This document shows, in pieces, positions 6,956 through 33,805 of a stretch of 45,989 nt of DNA. How positions within the stretch are numbered: the stretch's first letter is position 1; each line of letters starts with the position of its first letter. The position numbers and the translations under genes are program-made. Below the pieces are notes generated by a model that saw only the letters and a program-made list of their open reading frames with translations, made no database searches and was not told the DNA's origin. This stretch comes from Candidatus Saccharimonadota bacterium (lineage in GTDB: Bacteria > Patescibacteriota > Saccharimonadia > Saccharimonadales > Saccharimonadaceae), in the NCBI GenBank assembly GCA_030523715.1, contig JAUNHY010000001.1, positions 1-45,989 on the forward strand, given 5' to 3'.

Positions 6956-8200
6956 TTAGGATTTATCTAGGGCATAGCGAGGCCGGAAACTAAAACGAGT
7001 TATGCGTTTAATGAAAACTAAAAAAACTAAAAGCGGAACGTATATTAATAGTATTAATATGTTTCCCGGTGGCAACTCTATTGCCACCCAAGGGATACTT
7101 GCCGCGTAGTCAATTAAAAATAGATGTATTCTTATGACGACCTCTAGTGCAACTGCTAGAAATGGCAAAAATGTGCCACTCAATAATGTTAATGCCATCA
7201 CTAAGGCAATAGTTGGAGAGATAATTAATCCAACTATAATGCCGGCAACAGAAAACATGCCGAAGTTGTAGATGCTTATAGGCAAACAGAATAGTTGCGC
7301 AGAAATTGATACGATTAATGCGTTCGCAAAAGAATTTGGTTTACAGGAACCATAAAGAAAGCGCATAAGTACGGGCGCGAAAAAGATGATGCCGAAATAA
7401 GCGATGAACGAGAGTTGCCAGCCAACATTCGTGAGATTTCTAGGATTAATTATTAAAGTTAATGCTACGACATATAAAAATAGACGCCCAGGATTGAATT
7501 TTCGTCCGAAATACCATGCCGCAAGCCCAAGTAGACTCATAAGGCTGGCGCGCGCCATGCTTGCACTGAAACCAGCTACAGAAATAAATGATGTTACAAC
7601 CGCAACAATGCCAATGATTGTGGCTGCACGAGAAACTTTATTTAATATCTTCTTCATTATCTCTATCAGAATCGAAAGATGAAAGCCCGAAGTAACTACC
7701 AAGTGAGATAGTCCCGCTAGCCGTAATTTTTGAATAAAAATATCCGACATATTGCTTTTATCGCCCACAAGGTAACCCAAGGCAAGATTAGAAATATCTT
7801 CATCAAAAAGAGAGCGAATATTGTTCGAGAAAGTATGCTTTATTTGATTGGCTATGTCCGGCGGGCTAGGTTTACCAAGTGATATTAACTCTGGTTGATA
7901 CATGAAACCATCGTATTCGCCAAAACCATCGCCCAAAACTCCGCGAAGAGTCACTGAATCGGAGCGTTCAATGTCGTCATGCCGCTCAGGCAACATAACA
8001 TATACTTGACAATCTAAAGTGTTTATGCTATTATTTATATGTAGGCTCCCGATGCGGAGTCTGGTTTGCGAGTCCTTATTTTCAGCATCGTCAAGCAAGA
8101 CACCAGATATAGTAACGTCTCGTCCGTAATATGAAGCGAGACTTTTTTGATCTGAAATAATTGTCATTTGGCGAGCATATCCGCACAATAAGCCGGACAA
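6956..8200 (-). CDS. comEC: ComEC/Rec2 DNA-uptake channel, 5' part disrupted
   Basis: Inner-membrane channel that passes single-stranded DNA into the cytoplasm in natural competence. Residues about 20-110 fit the soluble OB-like N-terminal domain. Residues about 140-410 fit the Competence membrane domain with many hydrophobic helices, including SHLVVTSGFHLSIL (165-178), the counterpart of the family's typical SHLxxxSGxH motif. There is no C-terminal metallo-beta-lactamase domain, which many relatives have. The first canonical start in the open frame is TTG at 8200, but that begins inside a hydrophobic helix. The same frame continues upstream as a convincing ComEC N-terminus interrupted by TGA at 8279-8281 (see next entry). 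The gene may therefore be damaged, or the real start may be non-standard. Confidence 0.85.
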   Translation of the reverse strand: MSGLLCGYARQMTIISDQKSLASYYGRDVTISGVLLDDAENKDSQTRLRIGSLHINNSINTLDCQVYVMLPERHDDIERSDSVTLRGVLGDGFGEYDGFMYQPELISLGKPSPPDIANQIKHTFSNNIRSLFDEDISNLALGYLVGDKSNMSDIFIQKLRLAGLSHLVVTSGFHLSILIEIMKKILNKVSRAATIIGIVAVVTSFISVAGFSASMARASLMSLLGLAAWYFGRKFNPGRLFLYVVALTLIINPRNLTNVGWQLSFIAYFGIIFFAPVLMRFLYGSCKPNSFANALIVSISAQLFCLPISIYNFGMFSVAGIIVGLIISPTIALVMALTLLSGTFLPFLAVALEVVIRIHLFLIDYAASIPWVAIELPPGNILILLIYVPLLVFLVFIKRITRFSFRPRYALDKS

Positions 8201-8392
8201 AAAAGCAAAAATAATCCTAAGGTAACCTCTCCTCGCAAAACTTATAACAAGGCAGAACGTAGAGAAAACAACCGGCAGTCAAATGTCGACCGTCGCCCGT
8301 GCTATCCGAGCGACTATTAGTCCGTATATAAATGCCGAGCAGAAAATCAACGGAATAATTGATACATGAAACTTTCTTTTAATTCATTTCAT
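8201..8392 (-). pseudogene. comEC: N-terminal coding frame of comEC with two in-frame TGA codons
   Basis: Continuing comEC upstream in the same frame gives ATG at 8392, Lys, TGA (8384-8386), then IKRKFHVSIIPLIFCSAF and a second hydrophobic stretch up to TGA at 8279-8281, then LPVVFSTFCLVISFARR and the helix that runs into the annotated start. ComEC proteins usually begin with two or three membrane helices, often with a Trp-Leu at the start of the second, so TGA in place of TGG (Trp) is a natural explanation. What is seen is the open frame and the two stops; whether they are nonsense mutations, consensus errors or read-through is open. Confidence 0.6.
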
Positions 8393-8458
8393 GCCAAAAA
8401 TTTTGCACTATATTGCTGCGGAAAAAAAGCACAAGCATGACGTCAAGATAAGATGGCG

Positions 8459-8467
8459 TGATATAAT
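8459..8467 (+). promoter_or_regulatory. Extended -10 promoter of the LTA-synthase-like gene
   Basis: TGA-TATAAT. The predicted +1 is 8474, the G of an in-frame GTG that is the second codon after ATG 8471. Either a leaderless GTG start at 8474 or a start at the ATG with a slightly early +1 is possible. Confidence 0.6.
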
Positions 8468-8470
8468 TGA

Positions 8471-10378
8471 ATGGTGGAAAAATTCAAAATTAAGAAATTC
8501 AAATTGAAACGACCGAAGCGTCCAGATGACCGTAAAATGTATTTCATTTGTGCCGTTATTTTTCTAGCTTTGGCTGCGATTTTTCTAACTTGGTTTTTGG
8601 AATATCGTTACTTCATTAATAGTTTTAGTAGAACTTGGAGTTTTGCGATTGGCAGCCCGGCACCATTCTTCTTTAACGCACTCTTGATGTGGTTATTGCT
8701 TTTACTTTTGTGGGGAATCTTCGAAAAACCAGGCACAGCCGCTGGAGTAATGTGGGTCGTTATTACGCTAACTACATATGCGCATATCAATAAGTTTAAT
8801 TCGCGCGGTTTTCCACTTCTGCCAGAGGATTTTCAGTTGGCGAGCGAGGCGTCTTCTTTAACGAAATTCGTAACCGGAGAATCGATTGCACGCTTAGTAG
8901 GCGCAATAGTGTTAATTATTGCATTGACTATTTTCTTTAATCGAAAGATTGCTAAGAAAGTTTTTCTAAACTACAAAAATCCAAGTCCTAGCTTTTCGAA
9001 AAAACATTTCTTGGCGACGCGCGTAGCTATTATTCTAATAGCCGGCCTATCTTTCTTCTTTGCGACCGATTTCGTACGTCATAATGACGGAAGCCGTTAC
9101 GAAGATATTTTCCTGGGAACGCATTTTACGGCCTGGAATCAGAATCGCAATTATGACGATAATGGTTTTATTTTAGGCTTTCTGTACAACCTTCAGAAGC
9201 TGCAATTGGCTAAACCCGATGAATATAGTGAATCAAAAATCACTGAATTAAAAGCCGAGTATGATAGTCGTGCGGAAGAAGCAAACAAGAATCGCATTTC
9301 GGCAGCCGATGAAGATGTGAGCATAGTAGTAATTCTGAATGAATCATTATTCGACCCGAGCGTAGAATACCAGGGTCTGAAGTTTGAAGATTTCTATCCT
9401 CATACGGGCGGCGACGTCTTGCCGAATCTGCATCGAATAATGCGCGAATATCCTAGTGGATATATGTATACGTTGGACTATGGTGGCGGTACGGCCAATA
9501 TCGAGTTTGAGACTTTTACGGGTTTTACGAATTATTGGGTCAACACAGTACCATACACAGCACTAATTCCAAAAGCGGGCGATATTCCGAGTATCGCGCA
9601 ATATTATAAAAAATATGGCTACGAAACTGTCGCAATTCATCCATACAATGGTGGCATGTACAAACGCAACATCGCACTCAAGAACGAAGGTTTCGATACG
9701 TTTATCGACGAACACGACATGAAGCATCAAGATCATGATGGCAACTCGCAATATATTAATGATCGTGCCGCCTACCAAGAAACGCTCGATGTGCTGAAGA
9801 AATCAGACAAAAACCAAGTCGTAGGTCTCATTACGATGCAGAACCATACTCCATACAATGCCGACATTTACGAGGAAACTGAATTTGCCGTAACGAATGA
9901 GGATATCGAAGAAGGAAAACGTTCGGACATATCTATTTATTATCAAAGTATGCATAACTCTGATGCATACCTAGGCGAGTTTATCGATGGGCTAGAGGAG
10001 CTCGATAAAAAAGTCGTAGTTTTGTTCTTCGGCGACCATTCGGCTGGCCTTTTTGATAAAACTAATAACAATGATACGAAGGAGATTCGCGATTTGTCGC
10101 GCGTGACGCCATATTTCGTATACGCGAACTTTGACGCAAACTTTAGCACATCCTATCTTCCAACTACTACGCCGAATTGTATGGCCAATACGATGTTCAA
10201 CATATTGAACTGGAAAAAAGATTCATACTACTACTTGTTGGACGAAGTATGTACGGCCGAACCAATTTTAACCGCAACTTGGCTTGAAGGACGCGAGCTA
10301 ACCAATGCCGAAGTATTACGTGATTACGAATTGCTAACTTACGACATTCTCGGTGGCAAAAAATATTGGATGAAATAA
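8471..10378 (+). CDS. Lipoteichoic-acid-synthase-like membrane sulfatase
   Basis: Member of the LtaS/alkaline-phosphatase superfamily, which transfers glycerol phosphate (or a related group) on the outer face of the membrane. 635 residues, as in LtaS. A basic N-terminus is followed by about five hydrophobic segments (24-44, 66-84, 91-105, 139-157, 182-199), then an extracellular sulfatase domain from about 283. Key residues: VVILNESL (E291, metal), GGGTANIEFE with T341 as the likely nucleophile, and FFGDHSAG with D522/H523 (metal). It stands alone, divergent from comEC, and ends in a shared terminator. The exact polymer made is unknown; phosphoglycerol or phosphoethanolamine transfer are both possible. 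Confidence 0.88.
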   Translation: MVEKFKIKKFKLKRPKRPDDRKMYFICAVIFLALAAIFLTWFLEYRYFINSFSRTWSFAIGSPAPFFFNALLMWLLLLLLWGIFEKPGTAAGVMWVVITLTTYAHINKFNSRGFPLLPEDFQLASEASSLTKFVTGESIARLVGAIVLIIALTIFFNRKIAKKVFLNYKNPSPSFSKKHFLATRVAIILIAGLSFFFATDFVRHNDGSRYEDIFLGTHFTAWNQNRNYDDNGFILGFLYNLQKLQLAKPDEYSESKITELKAEYDSRAEEANKNRISAADEDVSIVVILNESLFDPSVEYQGLKFEDFYPHTGGDVLPNLHRIMREYPSGYMYTLDYGGGTANIEFETFTGFTNYWVNTVPYTALIPKAGDIPSIAQYYKKYGYETVAIHPYNGGMYKRNIALKNEGFDTFIDEHDMKHQDHDGNSQYINDRAAYQETLDVLKKSDKNQVVGLITMQNHTPYNADIYEETEFAVTNEDIEEGKRSDISIYYQSMHNSDAYLGEFIDGLEELDKKVVVLFFGDHSAGLFDKTNNNDTKEIRDLSRVTPYFVYANFDANFSTSYLPTTTPNCMANTMFNILNWKKDSYYYLLDEVCTAEPILTATWLEGRELTNAEVLRDYELLTYDILGGKKYWMK

Positions 10379-29255: not shown

Positions 29256-30176
29256 TTGGCAATCTTAGGAATAGATGAAGTAGGAAGAGGTCCCTGGGCG
29301 GGGCCTCTTGTTGTTGGTGCATGTGTTTTGGGAGATGCGCAGATTGATGGTTTAACGGACAGCAAAAAGCTAAGCGCAAAGAAGCGCGAGGCGCTGGCGC
29401 CAGAAATCCGCGAGAAGGCTACGGTGGGCTTAGGCTGGGTCTCGGCCGAGGAATTAGATAAGATTGGGCTTTCGGCGGCACTCTGCAAGGCTTGCCGCGC
29501 GGCCGTAAAACAAATCCATGTGCCTTTTCATGAAATTATCATTGATGGGACAGTGAATTTTTTGCGCGATACGCCGCTAGCCAGCCACGTACAGGTGCTG
29601 AAAAAGGCGGACCTGCTGGTACCAGAAGTATCGGCGGCGTCGATTGTGGCAAAAGTGGCGCGTGATGAATATATGTATAAACTGACCAAGAAATACCCGG
29701 GCTATGGATTCGAAAAGCATGTTGGCTATGGAACGGCGGCGCACAAAAAAGCACTACTAGAGTTAGGCGTCTGCCCGGAACATCGCAAAAGCTTTCGACC
29801 GATTGCGGAATTATTGAAGACTGAGCCGAAGAAAAAGTCCGCAAAAAGCACTAAAGCGCGCGGCGACCGAGGCGAAGATGCGGTCTGCAAATATCTACAA
29901 GAATCTGGACATGAAATTGTGGCGCGCAACTGGAAGAATAAGTTTTGCGAAATCGATATTATCTCGCGCTTTAATGGGGTGTTGTGTTTTACGGAAGTTA
30001 AGTATCGTCGCGCCGGACATGGACTAGACGCGATTGATAAGAAAAAGTTGGAGCAAATGCGCTTTGCGGCGGAATTATACCTGAGCAAAAAAGGCCAAAA
30101 CGAGATGGCAATTCTGGCAGCCGCGGAGGTGGCGGGCGACAACTATGAGGTCACTGATTTTCTAGTCCTACAGTAG
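29256..30176 (+). CDS. rnhB: Fusion of RNase HII and YraN-like nuclease domain
   Basis: 306 residues joining two normally separate proteins. Residues 1 to about 185 are RNase HII, which removes ribonucleotides from DNA: GIDEVGRGPWAG (D7, E8), D97 in IIIDGT, D119 in KADLL and VARDEY. Residues about 203-306 are UPF0102/YraN: GDRGEDAVCKYL, CEIDIIS and FTEVKYRR, a PD-(D/E)XK-type nuclease pattern (E207, E232, D234, E247, K249). A Lys/Ser-rich linker (about 189-202) joins them. The start is TTG at 29256, 1 nt after rplS, with no better start nearby. In many bacteria rnhB and yraN are adjacent genes, so the fusion fits known context. Confidence 0.93.
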   Translation: MAILGIDEVGRGPWAGPLVVGACVLGDAQIDGLTDSKKLSAKKREALAPEIREKATVGLGWVSAEELDKIGLSAALCKACRAAVKQIHVPFHEIIIDGTVNFLRDTPLASHVQVLKKADLLVPEVSAASIVAKVARDEYMYKLTKKYPGYGFEKHVGYGTAAHKKALLELGVCPEHRKSFRPIAELLKTEPKKKSAKSTKARGDRGEDAVCKYLQESGHEIVARNWKNKFCEIDIISRFNGVLCFTEVKYRRAGHGLDAIDKKKLEQMRFAAELYLSKKGQNEMAILAAAEVAGDNYEVTDFLVLQ

Positions 30177-32215: not shown

Positions 32216-32221
32216 TATAAT
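32216..32221 (+). promoter_or_regulatory. -10 promoter, leaderless start at 32228
   Basis: TATAAT with CGC instead of TGn in front; predicted +1 at 32228 equals the A of ATG. Confidence 0.6.
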
Positions 32222-32227
32222 GAACTC

Positions 32228-33805
32228 ATGAAGCGATTATTATTAGCTATCTTGGCAAGTGTCCTGTTGCTGGGCGCAACATCGTGTACAGCATTTGCAA
32301 CTAATCCATACGAAGTTGGAAATGAAGATGTCTGCACAATAACCGGGTACAACGATCCGCTGATTTGCGGACATCAAAATAGTAACGAAGAGGCCGAGAT
32401 GCAAGGACATGTCGGTAGCGTTTTAAACACGGTCTACATGTGGATTGGCATTATTGCGGTTATTGTAATTATTATTGGCGGGTATCAGTATATGACTTCG
32501 CAGGGCGACCCGGGCAGAATTCAGCGAGCAAAATCGACAATTCTCTACTCCGTGATTGGCCTTGTGGTAACGCTTGGCGCGTTTGCGATTACGACTTTAA
32601 TTCTGAGTGCACTTGGCGGCAACAGCACCGGCGGGGGCGGCGGTGGAGGCGGGGGCGGCGGCTCGCAAGTCACGGCGATTCAAATCGTTTCTGGTAATAG
32701 CGTGCTTGAGGGGAAAACCCTGCAGCTGCAGGTAAAGATTGTGCCAGATTATGCAACGGATAGAACCTTGACCTTTAGCTCGTCTGATACGAGCGTGGCG
32801 ACAATATCTGACACCGGTTTGATTACCGCGCTGAAAGCCGGCACGACGACTATCACGGCGACGGCGAGTAATGGCGTAAGTACCACCATGACATTAACGG
32901 TCGAAAAGATAGTAGTCGTAGAAAGCGTAAAAATAACTCCGGCAAGCGCCACGATAAAGATTGGCGCATCGACGACATTCAGCGCGACAATTACACCAAG
33001 CGATGCCGCCAATAAGACATTAACTTGGACAAGTAGCAATAATGGTATCGCTACCGTAACCAGTTCCGGCGTCGTGAAGGGTGTCAAAGAAGGTACGGCC
33101 ACGATTACCGCAACGGCCGCAAATGGTATAAAAGGAACGGCGACCGTAACCGTAGAATCGAACGAGGTAAAGTATGCAGCCGTGTTTGAAAAGCGAAATT
33201 ACAAACATACGAACGGACACGATTTGGACTACATTTTGAGTGTGCCGGAAGGCGCCCATAGCGGTATGCCGCTGGTAGTTTACTTGCACGGCGATGGCGA
33301 GGTAAACAATCCAACTCGTTTGAAAGGCTTGAAGCCAGTGCAATATTTGCATAATACAACGAGCGTGATCACGCTTGCGCCAGTAACCAAGACGACGGAC
33401 TGGAGTAGTGAATATATTCAGTTGGCGCTGAAAGGCCTGATTGATAAATATATGTCCGAATACAAGATTGATACCAGGCGCGTATATATTATGGGCTTTA
33501 GCCGCGGCGCAATTGGCACGTGGACATTCGTAAACCGCTATCCAAACTTGTTTGCGGCGGCAGTACCAGTAAGTTGCTGCGGTAGTATTAGTGGCTCAAA
33601 CTATAAGACGACAAAGGTATATGCCTTGGCCGGTAGCCAAGAAAGTAATTATATCGGCTGCATGAAATCAAATGTAAATGCGATTAATTCTGCGGGCGGT
33701 TCAGCAAAATTTGAATCCGTTGCTGGCCAAACCCATAATACGATTACCGCGAACTTCCCTTACAGCCAAGTGATTGACGGCTGGATGTTGAAACAATCGA
33801 GATAA
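32228..33805 (+). CDS. TrbC/VirB2-like protein fused to two Big2 domains and an alpha/beta-hydrolase
   Basis: 525 residues with an unusual order. 1-25: signal peptide (ends AFA-TNP). About 60-130: two hydrophobic helices separated by MTSQGDPGRIQRAKS, the pattern of TrbC/VirB2-type pilins. 135-145: an eleven-Gly linker. About 147-226 and 231-310: two bacterial Ig-like (Big2) domains, each with ITP/IVP and TxxATxxNG ends. About 316-525: an esterase of the alpha/beta-hydrolase fold with VYLHGDGE (oxyanion loop), GFSRG (S425 nucleophile) and QTHN (H503); E472 is a possible acid. The hydrolase would face outside the cell. The substrate is unknown. The gene stands alone with a leaderless promoter. 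Confidence 0.87.
   Translation: MKRLLLAILASVLLLGATSCTAFATNPYEVGNEDVCTITGYNDPLICGHQNSNEEAEMQGHVGSVLNTVYMWIGIIAVIVIIIGGYQYMTSQGDPGRIQRAKSTILYSVIGLVVTLGAFAITTLILSALGGNSTGGGGGGGGGGGSQVTAIQIVSGNSVLEGKTLQLQVKIVPDYATDRTLTFSSSDTSVATISDTGLITALKAGTTTITATASNGVSTTMTLTVEKIVVVESVKITPASATIKIGASTTFSATITPSDAANKTLTWTSSNNGIATVTSSGVVKGVKEGTATITATAANGIKGTATVTVESNEVKYAAVFEKRNYKHTNGHDLDYILSVPEGAHSGMPLVVYLHGDGEVNNPTRLKGLKPVQYLHNTTSVITLAPVTKTTDWSSEYIQLALKGLIDKYMSEYKIDTRRVYIMGFSRGAIGTWTFVNRYPNLFAAAVPVSCCGSISGSNYKTTKVYALAGSQESNYIGCMKSNVNAINSAGGSAKFESVAGQTHNTITANFPYSQVIDGWMLKQSR

Follow-up and report, generated by a model that had tools for sequence, protein, structure and literature searches.

How a secretion-system pilin and an esterase came to be joined in one protein, and where such an enzyme would act, are questions raised by a gene in the window, the whole stretch of 45,989 nucleotides from a Candidatus Saccharimonadota bacterium that was analyzed here. 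This bacterium is tiny, and its group is known to live attached to other bacteria. According to two reports, S. epibionticum cannot grow as an epibiont without its T4SS pilin array, and this T4SS has no recognisable relaxase (PMC10633639, PMC12102498). The role of the essential T4SS in these epibionts is so far unexplained (PMC10633639, PMC12857230). A 2025 survey of Patescibacteria T4SS describes pilin arrays with PF18895 and PF04956 (PMC12102498). On balance, we lean toward the view that the window protein is an enzyme-carrying T4SS pilin, displayed toward the envelope of a partner cell.

Architecture of the pilin-esterase fusion

The gene at 32228-33805 on the forward strand is a single unbroken open reading frame (ORF) of 525 codons for amino acids, with exactly the bounds given in an initial annotation of this DNA (Table 1). 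That annotation placed a signal peptide, a pilin hairpin, eleven glycines, two Big2 domains and a hydrolase in one protein, and the ORF listing, Pfam and NCBIfam searches and an AlphaFold2 (AF2) model agree with this arrangement. The model shows long helices (residues 54-90 and 95-129) joined by a short loop, two Ig-like domains built of the expected strands, and a hydrolase with pLDDT >90.

The assignment of the pilin to TrbC/VirB2 held in one respect and failed in another. Residues 66-124 matched the T4SS_pilin model PF18895 (35.5 bits, cut-off 26.6), and the Mbov_0395 pilin model (NF045849) also scored above its cut-off (48.9 versus 40), whereas the match of residues 53-124 to the TrbC/VirB2 model PF04956 fell below it (E 9e-5, 23.0 bits, cut-off 27.9). 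The window pilin is related to TrbC/VirB2, yet is not filed under that model. It does have the VirB2-like arrangement of a signal peptide, recognized by reading, and then two hydrophobic helices with a short basic loop between them. Big_2 (PF02368) was above the cut-off in two stretches (112.8 bits, E 7.5e-33).

The esterase models scored below their cut-offs, i.e., NF050058 (E 1.3e-15, 57.6 versus a full-family cut-off of 150), TIGR01840 (E 1.4e-10, 41 versus a full-family cut-off of 107.85) and the PHB depolymerase-type model PF10503 (18.1 versus 23). In structure alignments of the AF2 model, the hydrolase matched the esterase 3doh (Z 26.4, rmsd 1.9 A, 204 residues) and LC-Est1C (3wyd; Z 23.1); these are also its closest PDB sequences, with 25-28% identity. 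Fold and Ser, acid and His motifs are those of an alpha/beta-hydrolase esterase with predicted activity and a putative triad, and both the GxSxG motif (GFSRG in the window protein) and the C-terminal His, already singled out in the initial annotation, are conserved in nine homologues. Thermotoga maritima EstA (3doh) and LC-Est1C have the same alpha/beta-hydrolase domain, but neither has a pilin module.

The linker is Gly/Ser-rich and variable in length in relatives (N-module alignment). By sequence reading, a -10-like box just upstream is also present in two relatives (L066 and L064); its distance of six bases from the start codon of the window gene suggests leaderless transcription.

Table 1. 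Features of the pilin-esterase gene, in window coordinates
Feature	Position	Strand	Basis
TATAAT -10-like box, six bases 5' of ATG	32216..32221	+	sequence reading
Pilin-2xBig2-esterase fusion, complete gene, 525 aa	32228..33805	+	ORF; Pfam/NCBIfam; AF2 mean pLDDT 84.7; conserved in G201
Signal peptide, residues 1-25, probably cleaved following AFA	32228..32302	+	sequence reading only: KR, hydrophobic core, AFA
N-terminus of the mature protein; Cys36 and Cys47 conserved across the fusion family	32303..32386	+	both Cys columns invariant in 13-row N-module alignment
T4SS pilin domain: helices 54-90 and 95-129, basic loop SQGDPGRIQRAK	32387..32614	+	PF18895 and NF045849 above cut-off; AF2; tree with slot-3 pilins
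Eleven-Gly linker, residues 135-145, separating pilin from stalk	32630..32662	+	sequence
Big_2 domain no. 1, residues 147-228	32666..32911	+	Pfam Big_2; pLDDT about 90
Big_2 domain no. 2, residues 229-310	32912..33157	+	best Pfam Big_2 stretch in this half; pLDDT about 95
Predicted alpha/beta-hydrolase esterase domain, residues 318-525	33179..33802	+	NF050058, TIGR01840; structural match to 3doh, 3wyd
LHGDGE oxyanion motif, residues 353-358	33284..33301	+	HGxGE in 9/9 esterase rows
GFSRG nucleophile elbow, Ser425	33494..33508	+	GxSxG in 9/9 esterase rows
GSQES, candidate triad acid Glu472	33632..33646	+	Glu/Asp near position in 9/9 esterase rows
GQTHN, candidate triad His503	33725..33739	+	His invariant in 9/9 esterase rows

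Conservation of the fusion and its esterase

A comparison across genomes bore out the fusion, as a second species of the genus (G201) keeps it at the corresponding locus. The protein encoded there (L066) is 66.5% identical to the window protein over 525 aligned residues; pS was saturated (0.75) and pN was 0.22, indicating purifying selection, and the best-kept domain was the esterase (78% identity, pN 0.14). The two loci share genes for RNase HII, an HNH nuclease and rubrerythrin on one side and an ABC permease gene on the other, with one additional gene in between in G201. Because it is conserved at the same locus, the fusion is not the product of chance or of a chimera: the L066 ortholog and purifying selection rule out both a chance ORF and an assembly chimera.

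Among 393 genomes of the class, the esterase family was represented by nine copies in seven genomes, and eight of the nine were fused to a pilin. Their layouts include the pilin with two Big2 domains, with one Big2 domain or with a Ser/Asn linker, the pilin followed by an NlpC-like segment and the esterase, and the pilin and esterase followed by a NAGPA-like end (a match below the cut-off). The ninth copy (L142) gave no pilin match in the profile search and has a hydrophobic N-terminal segment, which was read as a membrane anchor. The initial annotation had named homologues with an unfused hydrolase as a ground for refuting its reading; eight copies are fused, and L142, which has no match to the pilin, indicates that anchoring of the esterase does not need one.

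A modular family with exchangeable C-terminal domains

The window gene does not stand alone; it is a member of a modular family. Its N-module (pilin and two Big2 domains) was detected in 13 of 45 genomes of the genus, and as only these have the type, the Big2-type fusion falls outside the core machine. The same N-module bears at least eight unrelated C-terminal domains in the genus, including esterase, SGNH hydrolase, NlpC/P60, NlpC-like and C39-like domains, and BLAST linkage of the C-terminal parts placed these cargos in separate groups. Matches above Pfam cut-offs were NLPC_P60 (L064, L127), Peptidase_C39_2 (L070, L107, L041), Esterase_PHB (L106), Abhydrolase_2 and DLH (L065) and VanY (L057). 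The SGNH cargo has invariant GNS and DxxH columns and reached the DUF4886 cut-off in L073 only; no sequence match to it was found in PDB. The remaining cargos were named by motif alone, the CHAP label denotes an NLPC_P60 match below the cut-off, and the MBL-like cargo of L069 is incomplete at the contig end, with a Lactamase_B match below the cut-off. GDPD was also considered as the cargo of L063 and L102, which Pfam, NCBIfam and PDB did not confirm; the one real GDPD match, above the Pfam cut-off, was in L080.

With 15 rows, the cargo group labelled AMI is the largest; it had no Pfam match and no credible PDB sequence match. Foldseek matches of its AF2 model (mean pLDDT 70.9) were all insignificant (best E 0.07), and many of them were NlpC/P60, CHAP or papain-like proteins. 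That this cargo is papain-like is a suggestion only, based on these insignificant matches.

In the source genome (G000), 14 T4SS_pilin matches were found. Besides an array on contig C2 and the window gene, they comprise five other long ORFs, which have Ser/Gly linkers and C-terminal domains. Two of these five are C39-like by profile (L041 above and L039 below the cut-off); others are C39-like by reading, and L042 is NlpC-like by reading. The exchange of cargo can be seen at a single locus: the same ABC permease gene is adjoined by the esterase fusion in G000 and G201 or by an NlpC/P60 fusion in G137 and G213. Ten further genomes with this permease had no fusion in the stretches read beside it. 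In a maximum likelihood tree of 46 N-modules, the 11 cargo labels needed 16 changes (minimum 10, shuffled mean 28.9), and strongly supported pairs of mixed cargo were L066 (esterase) with L068 (SGNH) and L074 (SGNH) with L141 (esterase), with the qualification that support is weak at certain internal branches and that the L068 row is long. These sequences follow the pattern that defines polymorphic effectors, a constant N-module with exchanged C-terminal domains. Polymorphic toxins (PMC3482391) and evolved VgrG-type effectors likewise combine a constant delivery module with an exchangeable C-terminal enzyme; however, they use a different machine, and the cargos here resemble envelope hydrolases rather than classical nuclease-type toxins.

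Partner genes with one TM helix adjoin many relatives, several being mutually homologous across cargo classes; beside the window gene, neither a small one-TM partner gene nor an immunity gene was identified. The same-strand neighbors of many pilin-enzyme fusions encode proteins of 130-245 aa, in which a single N-terminal TM helix is joined to a small ectodomain (L039:4760-5344 and 8039-8629, L072:724-1281, L103, L111, L112, L115, L118, L139 and L140), and could be assembly, regulation or immunity partners.

Fusions were also present elsewhere in the phylum. In another Patescibacteria lineage (G546, L155), neighboring genes encode pilin+SLT+Amidase_2 and pilin+SLT+GDSL lipase, the SLT match being below the cut-off in the former and above it in the latter. 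Pilins with very long adhesin-like ectodomains were found in L061, L152 and L156. The ORF L156:1479-11369, again from another Patescibacteria lineage, has a pilin domain and, after it, adhesin-like repeats that span ~3,100 aa. In many T4SS pilins of other families, a large domain instead precedes the hairpin. At L071:730-2259 the order is reversed, with an ectodomain of ~430 aa and then a C-terminal slot-3-type pilin domain.

Relationship to the pilins of the T4SS array

The T4SS array of the source genome is located at C2:67-72 kb, with VirB6-, PrgI- and VirB4-like neighbors (named by reading) and a plain slot-3 pilin retained; the window gene is far away on C1. PrgI-like and large VirB6-like neighbors are also found in the published Patescibacteria arrays, and the window hairpin is similar to their VirB2-like pilins in its PF18895 match and its slot-3 grouping. 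In the accessible part of that survey the pilins are small subunits and no enzyme domain is mentioned, whereas the window protein carries one (PMC12102498).

It might be argued that the hairpin is a mere membrane anchor, that the protein never meets the T4SS and that the Big2 domains simply push a generic surface esterase outward. The distance of the window gene from the T4SS locus, the hydrophobic N-terminal segment of L142 and the related pilins that bear adhesin-like domains alone are all in line with this proposal; nevertheless, we consider it rather unlikely in view of the phylogeny, genomic placement and within-genome similarity of the pilin, whose two-helix features are conserved.

A phylogeny of 117 pilin domains placed the fusions in two array lineages. 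Ser-linker fusions grouped with slot-1 pilins (support 100/99), and Big2 fusions grouped with slot-3 pilins, although not strictly as one clade and with only 106 columns in the alignment; SGNH fusions located in arrays were nested within the slot-3 group. The fusions arose from two different array pilin lineages, those of slot 1 and slot 3, and this double recruitment argues against a plain anchor.

Six genomes have an SGNH fusion inside the T4SS array (L113, L114, L117, L128, L129 and L130). Where the array was fully read (L113, L117, L130), the fusion lies between slots 2 and 4, where it overlaps its neighbors or almost abuts them, i.e., in the slot occupied by the plain pilin in other genomes. 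No plain slot-3 gene was found in the G137 array, and the slot-3-type pilins of this genome are solely NlpC and GDPD-like fusions outside the array. Both observations argue against a protein unrelated to the T4SS.

The pilin, but not the stalk, is also matched to the genome. Pilin identity was 0.697 within a genome (different cargo) versus 0.567 between genomes (same cargo), an excess reached by none of 2000 label shuffles for the pilin, compared with 25 and 666 in the case of the Big2 domains; such shuffles ignore genome relatedness, and the Big2 segments of the same proteins, which had little or no within-genome excess comparable to that of the pilin, served as the internal control. For example, the esterase and SGNH fusions of G201 have 89% of the pilin in common, but 39% and 27% of their Big2 domains. 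This fits a pilin that selection or gene conversion holds compatible with the assembly of its own cell. It should be noted that in the source genome the match to the plain slot-3 pilin is not tight, as the identity is 65%.

Possible function of the displayed enzyme

If the window protein is an enzyme-carrying T4SS pilin, the fusion would be exported by Sec via its signal peptide. Both ends of a VirB2-type hairpin face outward. Judging from VirB2 biology and the basic loop, the slot-3-type hairpin would insert in the membrane with both ends outside, and the C-terminal enzyme would then also be outside; such a hydrolase on an Ig stalk with an external C-terminus is what the initial annotation had proposed, and the signal peptide, two helices and basic loop predict the same topology. 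The Gly linker and the two Big2 domains would give reach and keep the esterase off the cell surface. The pilin module most likely joins its own T4SS pilin assembly as a minor subunit, or sits at its base, so that the enzyme would be displayed at the contact with the partner cell. The cargo is exchangeable, as hydrolases of peptidoglycan or the envelope are found on this module in relatives. Local attack on the partner bacterium's envelope is the likely task, in which the esterase might strip acyl esters, e.g., O-acetyl or other wall esters.

We infer that the family most likely consists of minor T4SS pilins or pilin-anchored proteins which display exchangeable envelope hydrolases outward. Their target is probably the partner cell, as judged from the accompanying cargos (NlpC/P60, VanY, SLT, Amidase_2). 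Since S. epibionticum depends on its array pilins and its T4SS is without a recognisable relaxase, it is plausible that the machine acts on the partner. More tentative is an enzyme-armed T4SS pilus, in which hydrolase-bearing minor pilins would co-assemble with plain pilins and the filament or its base would cut the partner envelope at the contact site. As a whole, the interpretation in the initial annotation, an outward-facing esterase on a membrane or pilus base acting on contact, is partly supported. It gains strength from the grouping of the pilin with slot-3 array pilins, from the polymorphic family around it and from several further cargos that profiles assign to envelope hydrolases.

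Alternatively, the enzymes might act on the cell's own wall as VirB1-like helpers that open peptidoglycan locally for assembly of the T4SS or pilus. VirB1-like hydrolases of Gram-positive systems (PrgK, TraG) are likewise T4SS-linked envelope cutters, and SLT and NlpC-type domains recur among the cargos; however, these hydrolases are separate proteins, not fused to a pilin, and the window cargo is an esterase. The pilin+SLT fusions of L155 do resemble VirB1 and VirB2 in one protein, and the SGNH fusions are located in the array, but most genomes of the genus have T4SS pilins and no Big2 fusion, the diversity and exchange of cargo suit a variable target better than a constant own wall, and two Big2 domains and linkers reach outward. 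We therefore regard action on the own wall as unlikely. A nutritional surface enzyme of the feruloyl or acetyl-xylan type, directed at dietary plant polysaccharide, is improbable: feruloyl and acetyl-xylan esterases are also numerous among the structural neighbors of the hydrolase, and many related pilin loci are from ruminant or other herbivore gut samples, but the best matches are the general esterase 3doh and LC-Est1C, and the sister cargos (NlpC/P60, VanY-type, C39-like) are not plant-directed.

No description of enzyme-fused T4SS pilins was found in the literature covered, which included part of a 2025 T4SS review and few subscription papers and preprints; within this partial coverage, a T4SS pilin that has become a carrier of exchangeable enzymes appears not to have been described. 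The occurrence of array-type pilins with envelope hydrolases offers a testable idea for partner attack, namely that enzymes reach the wall of the partner through the pilin assembly. The family names candidate enzymes and shows cargo exchange between lineages, and a search for ORFs that are long and contain a T4SS pilin domain may reveal host-interaction proteins across the phylum. An enzyme-armed pilus, if true, would give the epibiont T4SS a concrete role and would be a new use of a secretion-system pilin, and cargo exchange would tune the pilus to different hosts.

Other genes in the window

Two further genes were noted by sequence reading alone. The gene at 29256-30176 encodes an RNase HII fused to a YraN-like nuclease domain (306 aa), and this fusion is also present in G201 (L066 237-1154). 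The gene at 8471-10378 encodes a membrane protein of 635 aa similar to LtaS-type synthases with a sulfatase fold, and it is possible that its product makes a glycerol-phosphate polymer.
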